Counted from the stretch's first letter, positions 52,513 to 62,398 are shown. The stretch: 64,000 bases of DNA from an uncultured Bryobacterales bacterium (GCA_951813065.1 CATOTH010000010.1:248001-312000), one strand, 5' to 3'. Numbers and translations are program-made. The notes: generated from the sequence alone by a model not told the origin.

Positions 52513-53012
52513 GGATTTCTCCCGAGATCCTGACGGTGGAAGCCGAGGCAACCGGATTCAGGGCCGAGATGCTGGAGAAGTCGGTCCGGATGCTGGCCCT
52601 GCTCGACGCCATTCGCGATCATCCCCTGCTTGACGGGAAGCTTGCGCTCAAGGGCGGAACGGCTCTGAACCTGTTCGTGTTCAATGTCCCGAGATTGTCC
52701 GTGGACATCGATCTGAACTACGTGGGTGCCGCAAGCCGGGACGACATGCTGGAAGAGCGCCCCAAGATCGAAGCCGCGATCCAGGCCGTGTTTCGCCGCG
52801 AGGACTTCGCGGTTCGACGGATGCCCGAAGAACATGCTGGAGGGAAGTGGTCGATCCGCTATGCTGGCGCGTCAGGGCACAGCGGCCGGCTCGACGTGGA
52901 TCTGAATTTCATGTACCGCGTCCCCTTGTGGCCGGTCACGACCATGGATTCGCGCCCGCTCGGAAGTTGGCGCGCCCTGCCGATGCCACACAAGTTGACA
53001 CTTGACTTTTGA
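52509..53012 (+). pseudogene. AbiEii-type nucleotidyltransferase toxin, truncated by insertion
   Basis: GTG at 52509 overlaps the antitoxin stop (GTGA). The 167 residues include HPLLDGKLALKGGTALNLFV, the GGTALN motif, and LSVDIDLNYVGAASRDDMLE, the DID metal-binding pair of nucleotidyltransferase-fold type IV toxins, then GRLDVDLNFMYRVPLWPVTT. Similarity stops near SWRALPMP at about 52985, and the frame ends in seven unrelated residues at the left edge of the DUF4338-IS4 element. The normal protein has roughly 100 more residues, so the toxin is most likely inactive. Confidence 0.75.
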
Positions 53013-53037
53013 CATCGCTCTGTGCCATTTCTGGAGC

Positions 53038-54765
53038 ATGTATGAGCAACATCGGATCCCGACCACATTGGCGCGGGGCCCTGCGCTGATCCAGGTCCGC
53101 AAACTCGTGGCCGACGCGGGCGACGCCAGCCGCACCGAAATTGGCCGGCAGGTCTGCGCCCGGTTCGGATTCCTCGATGCCCACGGCAAGCCGCAGGTCG
53201 CCAGTTGCATGCAGGCCTTGCGCGCTCTCGCAGCCGCCCGCCAGATCGACTTGCCCGCGCCCCGGCACAACCGCCAGCGTGGCCGCCCGCGCCGCCTGGA
53301 CCGTCCCGTGCCCCCGCCCGTCGGCCTGCCCGCCCGGGTCGACCGGGTGCGCGACCTGCAACTCGTCGCGGTCCGCGACGAGCACCAGCGCCGCGTCTGG
53401 AACGAACTCATCGCCCGCGAGCATCCCCGCGGAGCTGTCCTCCACGCCGGAGCCCAGTTGCGCTACCTGCTGGTCTGCGAACATGGCGTGCTCGGCGCGC
53501 TCGGCTTCGCCGCGGCCGCTCTCACGCTGGCCGCCCGCGACGCCTTCATCGGCTGGGACCCCGCCACCCGCTCGCGCCACCTGCATCGCGTGCTCGGCCT
53601 GAGCCGCTTCCTGATCCGACCCTCCGCCGCCTGCCGCAATCTCGCCTCCAAGGCCCTCTCGCTGGCCCTGCGCCGGCTGCCCGACGACTGCCTGCGGCGC
53701 TACGGCTACCGCCCCCTGCTGGTGGAAACCTTTGTCTCTCAAGACCAAGCGGGCACCTCGCTGGCGGCCGCCAACTGGCAGCGCATCGGCGTGACCGCCG
53801 GGCGGGGCCGCTTGGCGGCCGCCGGCACGCAGGTGGACGTGAAGGCCATCTGGCTGTATCCGCTGGCGCGCAACTGGCGCGCGCAACTGGGCCTGCCAGC
53901 GCCGGGCGTGCCGGCGCTGGCACTGGGGGCGGGCCTGGCCTCCGGCGAGTGGGCGCACAACGAGTTCGGGACCGCGCCGCTGGGCGATGTACGCTTGACT
54001 CGGAGGCTGGTGCAGAGCGTGGAGATCCAGGCGGCAGCGCCCACCAAGTCGTTTCCCGGAGCGGCGCAGAAGGACTTGGCGGCAGTGCGGGGCTACTACC
54101 GGATGATCGACCAGCCGGCGGATTCGGAGGTGACGCCGGAGCACATCCTGGCGCCGCACCGGGAGCGCACGCTGCAGCGCATGCAGGGCCAGTCGGCAGT
54201 GCTGTGCATCCAGGACGGGACGGACCTGAATTTCGCGGAGCATCCGGGCTGCGTGGGACTGGGCCTGATCAGCAAGAACAAGGGCTCGGCGGGGACGCTG
54301 GGGATCCACATGCACTCGACGCTGGTGGTCAACGGGGAGGGGATCCCGTTGGGGGTGCCGCAGATCCAGTACGAGGCCCCGGACGGGCAGGCGGAGCAGG
54401 GCAAGCCGCTGGAGGAGCGCAAGACGATGCGCTGGATCCGGGGGTTGCGGGAGTGTGCGGAACTGGCGGAGCAGTTACAAGGGGTGCGGCCGGTAGCGGT
54501 GCTGGACCGGGAAGGGGACGTGTACGCGATCTTCGCCGAGCAGCGGCGGTTGGGGACGGTGGACCTGCTGGTGCGGGCGCAGCACGACCGGGTGCTGGGC
54601 AAGGGGGTGCCGAAGCTGTTCGAGGCGGTGCGGCAGGAGGCCGCGCAGGGGCGTTTGGAGATTCACGTGGCGCGGCAGAGCGCGCGGCGGTCGAGCCGCG
54701 GGCAGCCGGGCCGGCCGGCGCGCGAGGAACGCGTGGCGGAGGTGGATCTGAGATGGCAGTGTTGA
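53038..54765 (+). CDS. DUF4338-IS4 transposase fusion, C-terminus missing
   Basis: The 575-aa protein starts at ATG 53038 (GGAG upstream). Residues about 15-300 are DUF4338 (RDAFIGWDPATRSRHLHRVL, NLASKALSLALRRLPDDCLR, RPLLVETFVSQDQAGTSLAA, NWQRIGVTAGRGR). Residues about 310-375 are a Tn5-like DNA-binding domain (EFGTAPLGDVRLTRRLVQSV, AAVRGYYRMIDQP). Then comes an IS4 RNase-H-fold domain (AVLCIQDGTDLNFAEHPGCV, GIHMHSTLVVNGEGIPLGVP, PVAVLDREGDVYAIFAEQ) with the first two acidic catalytic positions. It stops after AEVDLRWQC, before the YREK region with the catalytic glutamate, so it is truncated by about 130 residues. It interrupts abiEii. Confidence 0.82.
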   Translation: MYEQHRIPTTLARGPALIQVRKLVADAGDASRTEIGRQVCARFGFLDAHGKPQVASCMQALRALAAARQIDLPAPRHNRQRGRPRRLDRPVPPPVGLPARVDRVRDLQLVAVRDEHQRRVWNELIAREHPRGAVLHAGAQLRYLLVCEHGVLGALGFAAAALTLAARDAFIGWDPATRSRHLHRVLGLSRFLIRPSAACRNLASKALSLALRRLPDDCLRRYGYRPLLVETFVSQDQAGTSLAAANWQRIGVTAGRGRLAAAGTQVDVKAIWLYPLARNWRAQLGLPAPGVPALALGAGLASGEWAHNEFGTAPLGDVRLTRRLVQSVEIQAAAPTKSFPGAAQKDLAAVRGYYRMIDQPADSEVTPEHILAPHRERTLQRMQGQSAVLCIQDGTDLNFAEHPGCVGLGLISKNKGSAGTLGIHMHSTLVVNGEGIPLGVPQIQYEAPDGQAEQGKPLEERKTMRWIRGLRECAELAEQLQGVRPVAVLDREGDVYAIFAEQRRLGTVDLLVRAQHDRVLGKGVPKLFEAVRQEAAQGRLEIHVARQSARRSSRGQPGRPAREERVAEVDLRWQC

Positions 54766-55759: not shown

Positions 55760-55805
55760 CGTGGGGCCCAACGGCGATTGGGCCGCCCACGGAGGCCCCC
55801 CAGCG

Positions 55806-56605
55806 ATGCCAGCAGACGCAAAGGATCCACGAGAGGCCGTGGCCCTGTTCCGGTTCGGCCTGATTGCACCCGTGCTGCATCTGGCGCCCGGGCCCGAGCG
55901 AGCGGCCGCCCTGCAGCAGATCGCCGACCGCGAGCACGCGATTCCCGGCAGCCGGCGGCGGCGTGTCGCGGTCTCCACACTGCAGACTTGGCGGCGGCGG
56001 CACCAGCAGGGCGGGTTCCAGGCGCTGCACCCGAAGCGGCGTAGCGACAGGAACCAACCGCGGCGCCTGCCGCCGGAGGTGGCCGCCCTGCTGACCGCGA
56101 TCAAGGAGCGCGAGCCGCGGCTGACGGTGAAGGCCGTCATCCGCCAGGCGCACGATTCGGGCCGGGTGCCGGACGGACTGCGCCTGGCTCCCTCGACCGT
56201 CAACCGGCTGCTCAAGCAGGCTGGCCTGATGGAGCGGCCCGCCGAGCAGCCGGCGGGAGGGGACCTGCGGCGCTACCAATGGCGGTTTGCCAACGACCTA
56301 TGGCAAGCGGATGCACTGCACGGCCCGAAGATCGCGGCGGCGGAGCCGGGGCGCAGGCAGGCCAAGGTCTACTTGCTGGCCACGCTGGATGACGCCACCC
56401 GGGTCGTGCCGCACGCGGCCTTCGCCTACTCCGAGAACGCCGACAACTTCCTGCCGTCTTCCGGCAGGCGGTGCTCAAACGGGGTGTGCCGCAACGCCTG
56501 TATTGCGACAACGGATCGACCTTCCGCAGCAAGCAGCTGGAGCTGGTCTGCGCCCAGCTGGGCACCAGTTTGGTGCATGCGCGGGTGTATCACCCATCGG
56601 GGAAG
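55806..56605 (+). pseudogene. Integrase-core (DDE) transposase, piece 1 of 3
   Basis: ATG 55806 opens an N-terminal helical domain, an HTH (RRRVAVSTLQTWRRRHQQGG, FQALHPKRRSDRNQ) and a second helical domain. The RNase-H fold follows with the first catalytic Asp in NDLWQADALHGPKI and VYLLATLDDATRVVPHAAFA. At about 56456 one base is missing: the frame must shift to read FRQAVLKRGVPQRLYCDNGS (second Asp), then QLELVCAQLGTSLVHARVYHPSGK. Similarity stops exactly at the AAG of that last lysine, where the serine-recombinase module begins. The continuation GKIERFF with the third catalytic residue is at 59913. Confidence 0.85.
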
Positions 56606-56614
56606 TCAGTGGTT

Positions 56615-58711
56615 TCATGATGCGTCCCTTCCGAACTGTTGTGCGGCGTCCGTCGGCTCCGCCCCTCGCTGATCGTAACCTGCCGGCAGCTTGTACATGC
56701 TGCGGGGCTTCTTCGCGGCCTTGATTTGGTCGCAAAGAATCCGGCCCTGCCGAGCGAGCGCTTGCACGCTCCAGCAGGGCAGCCCGAGTTGGCTGGCGAG
56801 TTCGCTGACGGTCACGTAGCCCTGCGCGCGCAGCTGCTCCCGGCGGCGCTGCAGATGCCCCTTCATCGCGACCCGCTGGCGTAGCCGGTAGACATGCCGC
56901 AGGGTGTACGGCGCCCCGTTCCACAGGCGGTGCCCGGCCTGGTTGAGCAGTTCGGCAGCCTCGGCGTCGGAATGCGTGTCCAGGGCCGCGTCCAAGGCGG
57001 CCACCGCAGCGGGACAGAGAGGGTACTTCAGCTGCCGCGGCCGGTTCAGCTGGACCTGATCGAGCGTCAGCGCCTTGCCGCCGCGCAGGCGCAGGTCGAC
57101 GCGGACCTCGTAGCCCGCGCGAGTCAGCGTGGCGTCCTCGACCAGCAGCCGCAGCAGCCGCTTGCGGTCGGCGTGGTCGGTTGTCGGCGCGTCCCACACC
57201 TGAGCGAAGTCGCGGGCCAGCTCCTCGATGCGCCGCAGCTGTTCGGCTGACATCTCCGCGTCGCGGGCCGCCTGCCGCTCCTCGCGTTCCCGCCCGGCCT
57301 CCTCCAGCTCCCGCAGGCGCTCGTTCCAGGCGGCCTCCAGCGGGGCCGCCACCAGGCGGTTGACCGGGTCCGCCGCATAGTAGCGCCTCTGGGCCAGCTC
57401 GGCCTCATAGACCAGCCGCTCGATGCGCAGGGCGCGCTGCGCGTCCGCCTCGGCGAAGTCAGCCCGCACTTGCTCCTGCACGGCCAGCGCGAGCGCAATG
57501 TTCTCGCCGTTCATCGCCCCGACCGCGAACCGCCCGACCGCGGCGTCGACGGCCTCCGCGCGGATCCACAGGCAGCCCTTCTCGCCCTTCCGCACGGTCG
57601 CCTCCTTGCAGGTGTAGTGCACTTGCGCAGGCTGGTTCCGATCCGGCCGCGCCCGGCTGTATTTCACGTTCAGGCGGCCACCGCACTGGCCGCACAGCGC
57701 GATGCCCTGCAACAACGCCGCCCCGTTCCGCGGCGCGCTGAGGCGGGCCGGGTTGGCGGCGAAGCAGCTCCCGTTGCGGGCCAGAGTCGCGAGGTTGCGG
57801 CCGTACTCCTCCCAGTCGATGAAGCCGACATGGTGGCCGGGGATGCACACCTCCCACTCGTCCAGCGGCAGCGTCCGGTAGCGGACGCTGCCGTCGGCCT
57901 GGCGCAGGGTGCGGGTCTGGCCGTAGGCGAAGGCCCCCGCGTAGGCGGGATTCCTGAGAATGCGCCGGATCTTGGGGTGGTCGGGCAGGTTCCAGCGCAG
58001 CACGCCGCGGCAGGGCCCGGTGCGGGCGCGGTGCGGCAGCAGGATGTTCTCGTCGCGGAACCACTTCACGACTTGCATCGCCGAGCCCTTGTCACGGAAG
58101 GCCGTGAACACGCGGCGGATCGCCGCGACCACCTGGCGGTCGGGGTCGAACACGACCTGGCCGTCCTCGTCGTAGACCAGCCCCAGCGGCAGCGGCACGC
58201 GCAGCTCGCCGCGGGCCGCCTTGCTGCGCTGCCCGCCCAGCAGGCGGGCGCGGATGCCCGCCAGCTCGAATTCACTGAGACTGCCCTTGATGTCGAGCAG
58301 CAGCTTGTCCGAACTGTCGTTGGGGTCGTGCACGCCGTACTCGTCGAGGATCAGCGTGTCGGCGAGGCGGGCGAACTGCACCAGCTGGGCCCAGTCGCAG
58401 TTGTCGCGGGCCAGCCGCGAAACCTCCAGGCAGAGCACGATGCCGATCTCTCCGGCGGCGATGCGGGCGGTCAAGTCGCGGAAGCCGCTGCGGTTGGCGG
58501 CATACGCCCCCGACAGGCCCTGGTCGTCGTCGATCAGGCGAATGCGGTCCTCGCTCCAGCCCAGCGCGATCGCCGAGCGGCGCAGGTCGTACTGGCGGTG
58601 CGTGCTCTCGGTGTTGCAGGCGACTTGCTTGAGTGAGGACTGGCGGATGTACAGGCAGGCCTCGCGGGCGAGGTGGCGCGGCTTGACCTTGCCGGCGGCG
58701 GTTTCAAGCAT
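56615..58711 (-). CDS. Large serine recombinase
   Basis: The 698-aa protein starts at ATG 58711 with AAGGAG six bases upstream. The resolvase domain begins ACLYIRQSSLKQVACNTEST with catalytic Ser25 in YxRxS, and continues with GIVLCLEVSRLARDNCDWAQ and LLLDIKGSLSEFELAGIRAR. A recombinase domain follows (HPKIRRILRNPAYAGAFAYG), then the zinc ribbon (CGQCGGRLNVKYSR ... YTCK), a long coiled coil (AQRRYYAADPVNRLVAAPLE, LEEAGREREERQAARDAEMS) and an extra HTH-like C-terminus (YVTVSELASQLGLPCWSVQA). It would mediate integration and excision of the module. Confidence 0.92.
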   Translation of the reverse strand: MLETAAGKVKPRHLAREACLYIRQSSLKQVACNTESTHRQYDLRRSAIALGWSEDRIRLIDDDQGLSGAYAANRSGFRDLTARIAAGEIGIVLCLEVSRLARDNCDWAQLVQFARLADTLILDEYGVHDPNDSSDKLLLDIKGSLSEFELAGIRARLLGGQRSKAARGELRVPLPLGLVYDEDGQVVFDPDRQVVAAIRRVFTAFRDKGSAMQVVKWFRDENILLPHRARTGPCRGVLRWNLPDHPKIRRILRNPAYAGAFAYGQTRTLRQADGSVRYRTLPLDEWEVCIPGHHVGFIDWEEYGRNLATLARNGSCFAANPARLSAPRNGAALLQGIALCGQCGGRLNVKYSRARPDRNQPAQVHYTCKEATVRKGEKGCLWIRAEAVDAAVGRFAVGAMNGENIALALAVQEQVRADFAEADAQRALRIERLVYEAELAQRRYYAADPVNRLVAAPLEAAWNERLRELEEAGREREERQAARDAEMSAEQLRRIEELARDFAQVWDAPTTDHADRKRLLRLLVEDATLTRAGYEVRVDLRLRGGKALTLDQVQLNRPRQLKYPLCPAAVAALDAALDTHSDAEAAELLNQAGHRLWNGAPYTLRHVYRLRQRVAMKGHLQRRREQLRAQGYVTVSELASQLGLPCWSVQALARQGRILCDQIKAAKKPRSMYKLPAGYDQRGAEPTDAAQQFGRDAS

Positions 58712-58973
58712 GGGAGTCTCCTTGCGGGGCGCACAGCAGTGCGCGGATCTGGCGGGCCGCCTCGGCCACGGCGGTCGGGGCCGAGGCGGCCCGTGCCGCG
58801 CCATCCGAGCGGGGCTCGGCAGCCGGGGCCGGCGCGGGGCGCGCGGCGGTCAGGGCCAAGGTCGCCGCCAGACCGTGCCAGCGGAACGTGGCCAGCGCCC
58901 GGCTGTCGTGGCTGGCCAGCCACTGCCAGCGCCAGCGCTCGTAGCGCCCGCTGGCATCGGCACCCCAGTTCAT
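58704..58973 (-). CDS. 89-aa accessory protein of the recombinase module
   Basis: Reads MNWGADASGRYERWRWQWLA, continuing SHDSRALATFRWHGLAATLA, then an alanine- and proline-rich linker and VAEAARQIRALLCAPQGDSHA. The ATG overlaps the HTH stop (TGATG) and the stop lies inside the recombinase start region (8-base overlap), so it is translationally locked between them. It is tryptophan-rich at the N-terminus. No family is recognised; an accessory or directionality role is a guess from position. Confidence 0.6.
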   Translation of the reverse strand: MNWGADASGRYERWRWQWLASHDSRALATFRWHGLAATLALTAARPAPAPAAEPRSDGAARAASAPTAVAEAARQIRALLCAPQGDSHA

Positions 58974-59488
58974 CAGGGGCGCTCCGAGCGTTTTTTTTCG
59001 CGGCGCGCAAGCGCCTTCTCGAGGCCGCGCGGGTGCAGCCGGACGCCGAAGCGCTGTTCGATCAGCGCAACCAGCGTGGCACTGGAGGTGCGGCCGTGCG
59101 CGGCCCGGTAGTCGTCGACAAAGTCCAGCATCGCGGGCGTGATCTTGTGCGGGCCGCGGGGGCCGCGCCGCTCGGGGATGAGGCCCCGCAGGCCGTCCCG
59201 GGCGAAGGCCTTGACGGCCCGGAAGCAGGTCGGCAGGGAGACGCCGAAGCGCTCGGCGGCCTTGGCCAGCGTGAGCTTGTCGAAGTGGACGCGACGGACC
59301 ATTTCGTAGCGCACCTGCAGGATGTCGCGAGGATCGAAGAACTCGCTTTGGTCGAAGCGCGGATCGCGGACACGTTCGGGATGCGGGTTGAGCAGGCCGG
59401 CTTGGCGGAGGCGTGCGTCCTTGTCGGAGGGTGGGGGCGCGGAGTCTGGCATGGCTGGCATGGGTAGATGGGCAGGGAGGAATTTCAT
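58973..59488 (-). CDS. Helix-turn-helix protein of the recombinase module
   Basis: The 171-aa protein has a Helix_turn_helix domain: FFDPRDILQVRYEMVRRVHF, LTLAKAAERFGVSLPTCFRA, VKAFARDGLRGLIPERRGPR. A winged helix follows: HKITPAMLDFVDDYRAAHGR, SATLVALIEQRFGVRLHPRG. The arrangement resembles the DNA-binding N-terminus of IS630/IS481-type transposases without the catalytic domain. It probably binds element DNA or regulates the operon. The first ATG (59488) is two bases from a TATAAT, so if that -10 is used, translation must start at a later methionine (59461 or 59452). Confidence 0.75.
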   Translation of the reverse strand: MKFLPAHLPMPAMPDSAPPPSDKDARLRQAGLLNPHPERVRDPRFDQSEFFDPRDILQVRYEMVRRVHFDKLTLAKAAERFGVSLPTCFRAVKAFARDGLRGLIPERRGPRGPHKITPAMLDFVDDYRAAHGRTSSATLVALIEQRFGVRLHPRGLEKALARREKKRSERP

Positions 59489-59490
59489 AA

Positions 59491-59496
59491 ATTATA
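59491..59496 (-). promoter_or_regulatory. Candidate -10 box inside the recombinase module
   Basis: The minus strand reads TATAAT (full consensus) in an AT-rich gap of 98 bases between the DUF5372 and HTH genes. No convincing -35 is found. Its closeness to the annotated HTH start argues for a shorter HTH protein if it is active. Confidence 0.4.
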
Positions 59497-59586
59497 ACGC
59501 ACCACAGGGGCCAGTCTGGGCAGAAATCCCCTGTAATTTGGCTATTAGCGGCAGATAGCGCCCTAATTTCTGAAAAATAACCATAC

Positions 59587-59856
59587 TTATTTATGATCAT
59601 ACGATGCCCCCCTCTGCAGCAACGCATCCACAACCGCCCGCAACTCGAGCAGATCGTCGACACGCCACGGCGAGCGCCCCGCCGAGGCGCGTTCGAAATC
59701 GTCCGCCAGCCGGTAGCTCGTCCATGCAAGCGGAAGCGTAAGCAGGGTTTCGTCCTCCCGCACGCAGCGCACCAGGCGCACGCCGCCGGTCGTCAATCGG
59801 GAGTAGAACGGAAACGATCGCCCGCGCAGCGGATGGTGCGGATGGGTGATGACCAC
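59587..59856 (-). CDS. DUF5372 protein of the recombinase module
   Basis: The 89-aa protein reads MVITHPHHPLRGRSFPFYSR, then LVRCVREDETLLTLPLAWTS, the pattern of DUF5372 (ITHPxHPLxGxxF ... PLxWT), small proteins found next to serine recombinases and integrase-fold transposases. The start is GTG at 59856. The fold is probably a small beta barrel like those of Mu-transposase C-terminal domains. It is the first gene of the module, 53 bases from its right edge. Confidence 0.7.
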   Translation of the reverse strand: MVITHPHHPLRGRSFPFYSRLTTGGVRLVRCVREDETLLTLPLAWTSYRLADDFERASAGRSPWRVDDLLELRAVVDALLQRGASYDHK

Positions 59857-59909
59857 CTCATCCGGACTCCCCGCTTGTTCGGGCTGGCCCGCTTTCGGGA
59901 ACTTTTGAT

Positions 59910-60041
59910 AAGGGCAAGATCGAAAGATTTTTTCGTCGAGTCCGCGCCGAGTTGTTGCCCACCTTGCGTCCCGAGGACTATGCCAGCCTGGCGGCCTTGA
60001 ACCGCCGTCTCGCCGCCTGGATCGAAGGCGAGTACCACCAT
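59910..60041 (+). pseudogene. Integrase-core (DDE) transposase, piece 2 of 3
   Basis: The frame reads KGKIERFFRRVRAELLPTLR then PEDYASLAALNRRLAAWIEG and EYHH. GKIERFF carries the third catalytic residue (Glu) and continues piece 1 without gap or overlap. Similarity ends at CACCAT (60036-60041), where the RIT element begins. The next residues of the family pattern, a PHxGL segment, are found at 63485. There is no start codon of its own. Confidence 0.85.
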
Positions 60042-60061
60042 AAATGTTGCGCGCAACATTT
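60042..60061. repeat. 20-bp perfect palindrome at the left RIT border
   Basis: AAATGTTGCGCGCAACATTT is self-complementary over all 20 bases and lies directly inside the left border, outside the 108-bp inverted repeat. Its half-site TGTTGCG recurs within the inverted repeat. It has no counterpart at the right border, so the two ends are not equivalent. Confidence 0.85.
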
Positions 60062-60063
60062 GC

Positions 60064-60171
60064 GGTGACATGTTGCGGTGCGGGGAATGTTGCGACGCGC
60101 CGGAATGCGCTTGTCTCTCAGCGGTGAAGCCGGACTCTCCGCAACATTCCTTTCTGCGCTCAGAGTGACCG
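60064..60171 (+). repeat. Left 108-bp inverted repeat of the RIT element
   Basis: Begins GGTGACATGTTGCGGTGCGG and ends CTCAGAGTGACCG. It matches the reverse complement of 63375-63482 at every position but one (C at 60095 against T). It contains an internal inverted pair GGAATGTTGCG (60084-60094) and CGCAACATTCC (60140-60150), likely recombinase-binding arms. Confidence 0.95.
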
Positions 60172-60206
60172 ATGATCGTCGTTTTGAATTCCAAGGAGAG
60201 ACGATC

Positions 60207-61451
60207 ATGTTCGACAATCTGTTCAAATGTCCCGATACGATTGAGGCGTACAGCTCGGCGCCGCTTGCCGATGAGCGGCTGAGCTTTCTGCACCATCTAC
60301 GGGAATCCGGATCCGGGACAACCTCCCTGCGGCATCATGCGTGCAGCCAGCTACGCCTGGTTCGGCTCCTGGAACTGACCGACGACCAGTCGGTCAGCGT
60401 TGTCCGGATCGAGGCCGCGGTCCGTTCGGCTGGGGGCGGATCAGGATTTCCCCGACAGGCGTCGGCCAGTGTCATCAAGGTTTTTGTTGCTAACGCCGTG
60501 CGGTGGATGCGGTTCCTCGGTCGGCTGGAAGAGCCGGGAGCGGTGCGCCACTCCCATGCCGTCGAACTCGATGTCTGGGTGGACTGGATGCGCCGAGACC
60601 GCGGGCTCTCGCAGACAACCGTCGGTGCTCTACGTCGGGTCGTCGAAGACTTCTTCGACCGGCTTGCTCCGAGCGGCACCGTCCTGTCTGCAATCACCAT
60701 CTCCGACATCGACCGAACATGCGCCGCATGGTACGCCGAGAGACAGCTCGGCCGGAGGACGCGGAACATCTACGCGCGGCGTCTTCGCGCTTTCTTCCTC
60801 TTCGCAGAATCCCGCGGCTTGTGCACACCGGACCTGTCCGTGGCGATCGTGCCGCCCCGGGTGTATGCGGAGACCGGGATCCCGCGCGGGTTCGCCCGCG
60901 GCGATGTCCTTCGCCTGCTGGCCACGACCGAGGGCGACCAGCCGTCCGATATCCGCGACCGGGCCATGCTGATGCTGTTGATCACCTACGGTCTCCGGTC
61001 CGGCGAGGTCGCCGGCCTGCGGCTTGACGATGTCGACTGGCTGGAGGAGACGCTTCGCGTCCGCTGCCCGAAGCCGGGAACCACGCGTCTCCTTCCGCTC
61101 TCGCCCGCTGCCGGACACGCGCTCCTGCGCTATCTTCGCGAGGTCCGTCCCCGACATCCTGACCGGACCCTGTTCCTCACCCTCAAGGCCCCGTTCCAGG
61201 CGATCGACAGTCGTGCTTGCTCCGGTGTCGTCAGGCGTCGCGCAGACCGCCTCGGCATACGGGCACCGTGTCGCGGGGCGCATGCGCTGCGCCATGCGGC
61301 AGCCCAGCACCTTCTCGACCAGGGGATGTCGATGAAGGTGATCGGAGACTATCTCGGCCACCGCAGCCCCTCCACCACGGCGATCTACGCAAGAATCGAT
61401 CTCAAGGCCCTGCGCGAGGTTGCGGATTGCGATCCGGGAGACCTGTCATGA
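60207..61451 (+). CDS. ritA: RIT tyrosine recombinase A
   Basis: The 414-aa protein starts at ATG 60207 with AAGGAG eight bases upstream. An N-terminal SAM-like core-binding domain is followed by the catalytic domain with first Arg in TYGLRSGEVAGLRLDDVDW, the HxLRH box HALRHAAAQHLLDQG, and DYLGHRSPSTTAIYARI with the final His and nucleophilic Tyr. All catalytic residues are visible. It is the first of three recombinases, and its stop overlaps the next ATG (ATGA). In RIT elements the three proteins act together, but the division of labour is unknown. Confidence 0.9.
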   Translation: MFDNLFKCPDTIEAYSSAPLADERLSFLHHLRESGSGTTSLRHHACSQLRLVRLLELTDDQSVSVVRIEAAVRSAGGGSGFPRQASASVIKVFVANAVRWMRFLGRLEEPGAVRHSHAVELDVWVDWMRRDRGLSQTTVGALRRVVEDFFDRLAPSGTVLSAITISDIDRTCAAWYAERQLGRRTRNIYARRLRAFFLFAESRGLCTPDLSVAIVPPRVYAETGIPRGFARGDVLRLLATTEGDQPSDIRDRAMLMLLITYGLRSGEVAGLRLDDVDWLEETLRVRCPKPGTTRLLPLSPAAGHALLRYLREVRPRHPDRTLFLTLKAPFQAIDSRACSGVVRRRADRLGIRAPCRGAHALRHAAAQHLLDQGMSMKVIGDYLGHRSPSTTAIYARIDLKALREVADCDPGDLS

Positions 61452-62398
61452 CTCTGGGCGAGGCCATCGACACGTACATCCTCTGGCGGCGATCCCACGG
61501 CACGAAGTTCGACGACGGTGCCAGGATACTGCGTCGGTTCCTGAAGGGGGTCGATGCGGATGCCCCCTGCGATGCGGTCACGAGGGACGCGGTCCGTACC
61601 TTCCTCGCAGGGACCCGACCGCCGACCAGCTACCGGAATGCCAAGTACACTGCTCTGTCTGGATTGTACCGCTTTGCCATCAGTCGCGGCCACGCGACCC
61701 GGTTTCCGCTGCCCGAACGGGAGAGCGAGCCGAGGGCATCGGCGCCCCTGCCGCCCTACATTTACACTGGGGACGAAGTTCGGCGTCTTCTCGGCTCGAC
61801 CGCAGCCTCCCGCGCCCGTGCAAGGCAACTGGACGGCGACACCCTAAGGACCTTGATCCTGCTGCTGCACGGATCCGGACTGCGCAGCGGCGAAGCGCTC
61901 CGACTCACGCTCGCGGATGTCGACCTTGATGACGCGGTGCTCACCGTTCGCGATTCGAAGTTCTACAAGTCGCGCCTGGTTCCGGTCGGGGAACGGCTCG
62001 CCCATGTGTTGCGCGACCACGCCGCCAGGCGCCTGCGGCGCCCGCAGCCGGAGGGACGGGATTCGGCCTTCCTCGCGAACCGTGACGGAACACCCCTGTT
62101 GGCGGGAGTCGTCAGGAATGTCTTCGCCAAGCTGCTCCGCGATGCCGGGATCGGCGGCGGGGACAGCAGGTGCCGGGGTCCCTGCCTGCATTCGTTCCGG
62201 CACGGATTCGCCGTCGGACGGCTGAACGCCTGGTACCGGCAGGGCGCCGACGTGCAGCGACTGTTGCCGGTGCTCTCCACCTACCTCGGTCACAGGAACC
62301 CGGCCGGAACCCAAGTCTACCTGAGCATGACCCCGGAAAGGCTCGTTCAGGCATCGCTCCGCTATGAACACTACATGAAGGGAGATCAAGATGCGTGA
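61448..62398 (+). CDS. ritB: RIT tyrosine recombinase B
   Basis: The 316-aa protein has a core-binding domain (LGEAIDTYILWRRSHGTKFD) and a catalytic domain with LLHGSGLRSGEALRLTLADV (first Arg), CLHSFRHGFAVGRLNAW (HxxR) and TYLGHRNPAGTQVYLSM (His and Tyr). It is shorter than ritA. The start overlaps ritA by four bases and the end overlaps ritC by eight, so the trio is translated as one unit. The ATG at 61448 is chosen because the longer open frame upstream lies inside ritA in another frame. Confidence 0.9.
   Translation: MTLGEAIDTYILWRRSHGTKFDDGARILRRFLKGVDADAPCDAVTRDAVRTFLAGTRPPTSYRNAKYTALSGLYRFAISRGHATRFPLPERESEPRASAPLPPYIYTGDEVRRLLGSTAASRARARQLDGDTLRTLILLLHGSGLRSGEALRLTLADVDLDDAVLTVRDSKFYKSRLVPVGERLAHVLRDHAARRLRRPQPEGRDSAFLANRDGTPLLAGVVRNVFAKLLRDAGIGGGDSRCRGPCLHSFRHGFAVGRLNAWYRQGADVQRLLPVLSTYLGHRNPAGTQVYLSMTPERLVQASLRYEHYMKGDQDA

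Follow-up and report, generated by a model that had tools for sequence, protein, structure and literature searches.

A cargo-free large serine recombinase element as a probable site-specific parasite of other mobile elements, with a DUF5372 gene predicted to be split by integration

What is a serine recombinase module without cargo doing in a bacterial genome, where does it end, and what does it interrupt? We addressed this question in a 64,000-nucleotide stretch of an uncultured Bryobacterales bacterium (GCA_951813065.1 CATOTH010000010.1:248001-312000, hereafter the window), in which a large serine recombinase (LSR), an 89-aa protein (p89), a helix-turn-helix (HTH) protein and a DUF5372 protein are encoded side by side on the minus strand. 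Very probably this module parasitizes other mobile elements site-specifically and carries a DUF5372 gene that is split by integration and would yield its product from the excised circle only.

The whole element occupies 56605..59911 on the minus strand (3,307 bp with one core), and its similarity to two other loci, L007 and L008, breaks at AAG edges: one AAG at 56603..56605 on the recombinase side, with a 2-bp core at 56603-56604 (AA on the plus strand, TT in element orientation), and a second AAG at 59910..59912 on the DUF5372 side, with the core at 59910-59911. The recombinase recurs as an identical protein in two further copies in the host genome, three with that of the window. When the flanks were aligned, the copies at G000:C1:145036 and C1:640888 were identical to the window element save for one T in a T-run, and similarity among host copies was lost exactly at the AAG on either side. 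Three host copies and 40+ relatives placed the element ends at the 2-bp core TT/AA within the common AAG, and joining the flanks at this core regained the empty site, with no target duplication beyond the core. The preliminary description of the locus had stated that the edges share AAG alone, had called the module a minimal mobile unit without cargo, and had proposed to determine its ends by comparing copies; the copy alignments bore out the first statement, three near-identical copies gave the boundaries 56605-59911, and the second statement held as well, with three copies at different sites of one genome and with ends and gene order conserved. The copy at L008 is flanked on the left by half of an IS21 IstA gene (CRPYRARTK) and on the right by the right flank of the window copy, and is therefore a rearranged copy. 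About 7.4 kb including the serine element are common to the window and C1:630000-649000 at 99.7%, a large recent duplication. Another genome holds three identical copies, two of which sit in IS21 IstA at RPYKPRD^KAKVE (the caret marks the insertion point). Terminator and promoter scans gave nothing convincing.

In the window, the element interrupts an IS481-type transposase gene on the plus strand at YHPSGK^GKIERFF. The 5' part of this gene (55761..56605; NF033577 IS481, 3.5e-27) ends in ..RVYHPSGK, the 3' part (59910..60067) reads KGKIERFFRRVRAELLPTLRPEDYASLAALNRRLAAWIEGEYHH.., and the halves join in frame at K-GKIER, the flanks joined at one AAG giving ..RVYHPSGK-GKIERFFRRVRAELLPTLRPEDYASL... 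In this rebuilt frame, the insertion falls in the codons of the K-x-K-x-E motif, which contains the third catalytic residue of DDE enzymes. The invaded gene also carries a frameshift near 56460, upstream of the insertion point (or a programmed frameshift), and may because of it have been inactive already before the insertion. At L007 the same codons are interrupted in a different IS481-type gene (YQPQGKGKVERPIRYVR).

For each locus of the family we assigned as target the protein whose halves flank the module ends, and in most loci the two halves of one mobile-element protein abut these ends. Flanking pieces had Pfam support (rve, RVT_1, DDE_Tnp_1, IstB_IS21, TnpB_IS66), and in plasmid annotations istB or split tnpB genes adjoin the module. 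The targets were IS21 IstA at PRDK^AKVE (L039, L040, L058, L061, L079, L081, L094 and others), ISNCY at AKGRVER (L044, L045, L057), IS3 at EGN^GCIERFF (L047), WENGYVEW (L063) and SADNAAMESFF (L059), IS66 TnpB at FVLWYK^RLE (L041, L051, L080, L082, L096), IS66 TnpC at NNAAERA (L091), IS5 at KRWV^IERT (L092), IS4 (L062), the P-loop of IstB (L056), and group II intron reverse transcriptases (RTs) at DADIRGF^FD (L009, L033, L053, L054) or RPLGIP (L071, L086, L090). The IS66 TnpB and RPLGIP sites are conserved, though neither is known to be catalytic. Taken as reconstructed, these sites show insertion within the codons of conserved, often catalytic, motifs of transposases, IstB, IS66 TnpB, TnpC and group II intron RTs, which are thereby split. 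The core was TT in the window's clade and AA or GG in other clades.

On a maximum-likelihood tree of the recombinases, target class changed 10 times vs 21.5 times in shuffles (0/200 as low). Moreover, the recombinases of L057 and L079 differ by only ~0.03 changes per column (end branches of 0.02 and 0.009), and L057 interrupts ISNCY at AKGRVER and L079 interrupts IS21 at DKAKVE, one codon motif in different families. Because these near-identical recombinases strike the same codons in ISNCY and IS21, motif DNA rather than a gene family seems to be read; and since targets also cluster by clade, a recombinase that reads attB DNA would be the simplest source of target specificity. Transposase abundance as the cause of target choice was rejected on the exact codon recurrence and the clade-specific sites.

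Some observations concern the surroundings of single loci. One group II intron RT region (L009, C2:458000-468000) seems to contain insertions of two different LSRs: a family member sits at RT motif A, and L115, an LSR unrelated to it, lies nearby. Five LSRs of ~25% identity (L101, L103, L105, L115, L116) have group II intron RT/maturase sequence beside them or on both sides, apparently at an RT position other than that of the family, and are perhaps a second LSR type invading intron RTs. The copies at L041 and L042 have their IS66 surroundings in common over 4.3 kb at 98.8%, and the element may for this reason hitch-hike with the insertion sequence (IS) that it invades.

Where, then, does the DUF5372 gene begin? 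The 89-aa open reading frame (ORF) lies at 59587..59856 on the minus strand and matches the Pfam profile DUF5372 (PF17342, E=1.5e-17, 63.8 bits vs a cut-off of 25), and on this side of the core its codons continue in frame to the junction (59587..59911, minus strand), its proper start being predicted at the other end of the element. There, 56605..56618 (minus strand) would supply the start codon ATG (56618-56616) and the first 14 nt of a circle-form DUF5372, with a Shine-Dalgarno-like GGAAGGGA just upstream, within the recombinase gene (56615..58711, minus strand, 698 aa), whose TGA stop overlaps the ATG as ATGA. Across the family, (A)GGAGGTGCAGTATGAAR or a variant of it stands at the recombinase-side end and comprises a Shine-Dalgarno-like motif and a start codon, the latter 14 nt ahead of the core. 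The Shine-Dalgarno-like motif was present in 28/28 curated distinct elements, and the overlap of the start with the recombinase stop was 4 nt (as ATGA) in 16/28 and 11 nt in 4/28.

The circle join of the window element reads ATG AAA CCA CTG ACT TAT CAA AAG TTC CCG AAA GCG GGC.. (MKPLTYQKFPKAGQPEQAGSPDEVVITHPHHPLRG...). All joins with a dinucleotide in common were enumerated (276 over 41 loci); as background, a fraction of 0.33 of them was in frame and open. As the true join we chose the one that restored the host protein, with references from other elements or intact proteins. With the empty site rebuilt in this way, the circle ORF was in frame and open with DUF5372 in 27/31 distinct elements (P ~7e-10). 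The reconstructed joins show that integration splits the element's own DUF5372 gene, leaving a putative ribosome-binding site and start at the recombinase-side end and the body at the other; at the sequence level, attP thus lies inside a gene of the element and integration alters the product. No DUF5372 copy with the first codons was found in the host genome. A Sinorhizobium attP query matched 202 places in 73 plasmid records, no place in these records covering 80% of the query, and among the matches listed the starts fell at bases 129-135, with the core at 135. Likewise, a Bradyrhizobium attP (8 places) found no assembled record spanning the junction. In a protein search with the circle form of DUF5372, the match over the first codons was lengthened by target codons by chance. 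DUF5372 is probably made solely from the excised circle.

The remaining genes fit this arrangement as follows. The gene of the HTH protein (171 aa, 58973..59488) and that of p89 (58707..58973), both on the minus strand, precede the recombinase gene, the start of which p89 overlaps, and an AT-rich gap of 98 bp (59489..59586), the putative promoter region for HTH-p89-recombinase, separates them from DUF5372. GC content in this gap was 0.45 vs 0.71 in the recombinase gene, and the gap between DUF5372 and HTH was AT-richer than the recombinase gene in 36/36 loci (mean GC 0.46 vs 0.61). From the split frame and the AT-rich gap, the natural operon would therefore be promoter-HTH-p89-recombinase-(attP)-DUF5372. 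Among 42 loci whose recombinase is at least 40% identical and whose upstream DNA is long enough, DUF5372 was present in 41, the HTH gene in 37 and both in 36; below 40% identity, the counts were 13/21 for DUF5372 and 1/21 for the HTH gene. In the main clade, a homologous small protein (..YExLR..GLALFLRxGMAAW..LLAxMVL..) stands ahead of the recombinase. The four minus-strand ORFs filling 3.3 kb were found as the preliminary description gave them, and its refuting condition, that homologous recombinases mostly lack these partners, did not hold (DUF5372 and HTH together in 36/42 loci). Its order DUF5372-HTH-p89-recombinase is right for the linear element, but as a natural operon it is a permutation, DUF5372 being last on the circle; similarly, the overlaps of the last three genes stand (58973; 58707-58711), but a single operon is doubtful in the linear order because the 98-bp gap parts DUF5372 from the other three. 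Taken as a whole, the earlier interpretation holds in part.

The recombinase has the Pfam domains Resolvase (residues 19-169; PF00239, 3.1e-17), Recombinase (195-311; PF07508, 1.2e-14) and Zn_ribbon_recom (333-392; PF13408, 2.3e-07), which complete the LSR domain set together with a C-terminal coiled coil that is visible by eye only. The added C-terminal HTH claimed earlier corresponds to an HTH-like stretch, VSELASQLGLPCWSVQALARQGRI, which is kept in the family consensus. The HTH protein matches Pfam HTH_29/32/28/23 and is most like the DNA-binding N-terminus of IS630/IS481 transposases, and comparison with Pfam and transposase profiles revealed no catalytic domain in it. p89 had zero Pfam matches; its family homologues have the pattern YExLR...GLALFLRxGMAAW...LLAxMVL. 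For DUF5372, a profile search found no relatives among PDB sequences. Its AlphaFold model (predicted local distance difference test, pLDDT, 88) has a small SH3/Tudor/KOW-like barrel (residues 1-51) and a helix, and the structure matches of the model were weak (best VIA Z 5.7, Foldseek E > 0.5); as a mere hint, the model suggests an SH3-like barrel plus helix.

By tblastn, relatives were present in 18/299 genomes of the host class (E<=1e-100), in 18/396 genomes of the host phylum (1e-80) and in 533 plasmid records, mainly rhizobial, and one 79% relative was found in a Bryobacterales metagenome-assembled genome. Annotations of Sinorhizobium, Aromatoleum, Rhodococcus and Bradyrhizobium show the identical gene order. 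Ends and gene order are conserved in Pseudomonadota, Actinomycetota and, to judge from the 79% relative, Acidobacteriota, and the four genes are a complete 3.3-kb mobile element present in several bacterial phyla. A search of viral contigs found one relative and no member of the RT clade, and there were no relatives among phages. L078, on an IMG/VR viral contig, is a family member beside a gp25-like baseplate gene, not a transposase.

Right of the element, the window contains two tyrosine recombinase genes in tandem (60078-62398), and at L008:6222-9530 a third such gene stands beside the copied pair; the tandem genes look like a recombinase-in-trio element. The gene at 53002-54765 encodes a transposase of the IS4 type; its N-terminal part matches Pfam DruA (PF14236, 2e-29), which takes its name from the Druantia defence system.

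Several points weigh against reading the element as a parasite with a split gene. Its circle, excision and expression are predictions from the nucleotide sequence alone. The copy at L011 is in an Ig-repeat gene, those at L038, L048 and L050 are in or between other genes, and L078 adjoins the phage gp25-like gene. Among 15 other LSRs from the same class, a control set that is small and not clean, five also lay near group II RT sequence; intron-RT targeting is not unique to the family, and LSR parasitism of introns is broader. The distant clades are without the HTH gene and part of them also without DUF5372. The cores were picked partly by host-protein restoration, a criterion independent of the DUF5372 frame, and L064, L046, L088 and L089 did not pass the automatic in-frame test; with the join restoring KGKIER, L064 is in frame. 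Finally, in the integrated state a shorter DUF5372 could begin at an in-frame GTG (59856).

How do other explanations fare with these data? An ordinary multi-targeting LSR transposon with a loose GC-rich core, for which transposase genes are merely abundant and dispensable and the DUF5372 frame an accident, could account for L011 and the few others in unrelated genes, and relaxed TT cores have been described for LSRs (Durrant et al., PMC10083194); it would not lead one to expect the recurrence of the same codons in diverged transposases, clade-specific targets or 27/31 in-frame circle ORFs, and we regard it as very unlikely. It is also unlikely, in our judgement, that the integrated element expresses DUF5372 from an internal start (e.g. 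GTG 59856) or outside promoters, the far-end start being a relic or a constraint on the coding capacity of attP. Annotation pipelines do put DUF5372 starts internally, and in some loci the reading frame stays open upstream of DUF5372 as far as the flank, but the Shine-Dalgarno-like motif and start are in frame at a fixed distance from the core across diverged clades, and the AT-rich gap is downstream of DUF5372, not upstream.

The preliminary description had further proposed that the small proteins, p89 and HTH, set integration direction or target choice. Both are conserved together with the recombinase across the main clade and translationally linked to it, and the HTH protein resembles IS481/IS630 DNA-binding domains; however, distant clades without the HTH gene still strike single motifs (RT, IS66), and target class clusters by recombinase clade. 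We hold this proposal possible, but lean against it.

Further, we predict how a parasite with a split DUF5372 gene would work. The element would excise as a circle, restoring attP, and transcription from the AT-rich gap would run through the HTH-p89-recombinase operon, which by ATGA translational coupling would continue into a complete DUF5372. As a circle-only protein, DUF5372 would signal the excised state, most likely as a DNA- or recombinase-binding factor favouring integration, and p89 or HTH would be candidates for the opposite factor (a recombination directionality factor) or for a regulator. After integration, DUF5372 synthesis would end, and read-through transcripts would enter the 5' half of the split host gene in the antisense direction. 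Promotion of integration is the role that we tentatively favour for DUF5372, because its synthesis would coincide exactly with the presence of attP and end when attP is destroyed; a role in replication, stability or immunity is possible. Both the role of DUF5372 and the protein that sets direction or target are inferred. The chances seem about even that such elements form a widespread hyperparasitic class of serine recombinases, which would read the most constrained codons of the enzymes of selfish elements and disarm them, using a split gene as excised-state sensor to switch the recombinase to integration.

Conserved or catalytic codons are a site that the host element can hardly mutate away and that is present across many transposon families and species, and since insertion cripples the transposase, these elements could naturally hold the spread of ISs and introns in check. 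The split gene, if true, would be a simple answer to a long-standing question about serine integrases, with direction controlled by the state of the DNA. Moreover, clade-wise motif retargeting offers a natural series for learning how LSR attB specificity changes, which genome engineers want, and DUF5372 gains a context and a testable role.

A literature search, with most subscription journals outside its scope, returned no account of such an element and no mention of DUF5372. The element is similar to known LSR elements (Tn4451/TnpX, Tn5397/TndX and the Durrant 2022 clade) in its Resolvase, Recombinase and zinc ribbon domains, its dinucleotide core, its lack of terminal repeats and its occurrence at several genomic sites, but it differs from them in being cargo-free, in having four conserved genes and in being without DUF4368, a domain present in 63% of the multi-targeting LSR clade (PMC10083194) and not matched in the window recombinase by Pfam. 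In the survey of multi-targeting LSRs, competence genes were enriched among the targets (PMC10083194), whereas the targets here are codons in conserved motifs of other mobile elements. Unlike a classical DDE insertion sequence, it has an LSR alone and edges with AAG only, and we found no terminal inverted repeats, duplication or DDE transposase; and unlike IS607 (short serine recombinase, N-terminal HTH, TnpB), it encodes a 698-aa LSR with an N-terminal catalytic domain and no such TnpB. Site-specific insertion within a conserved gene of another mobile element is shared with the integrative mobilizable elements (IMEs) whose serine integrases place them inside virD4/traG, Maff2 and SNF2 genes of integrative and conjugative elements (PMC5704250), and with helper-embedded phage-inducible chromosomal islands (PICIs) in prophage late genes (PMC10111431); IMEs and PICIs, however, are satellites using the helper's transfer or packaging, and not a 3.3-kb unit striking many unrelated transposase and RT families. 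Finally, in mycobacteriophage integration-dependent immunity attP lies inside the repressor gene (PMC9262239), and there as here an att site stands in a gene of the recombinase operon and integration changes the product; the sign is opposite, as in our element it is the 5' end of the gene, start codon included, that integration takes away, and activity would belong to the circle form.

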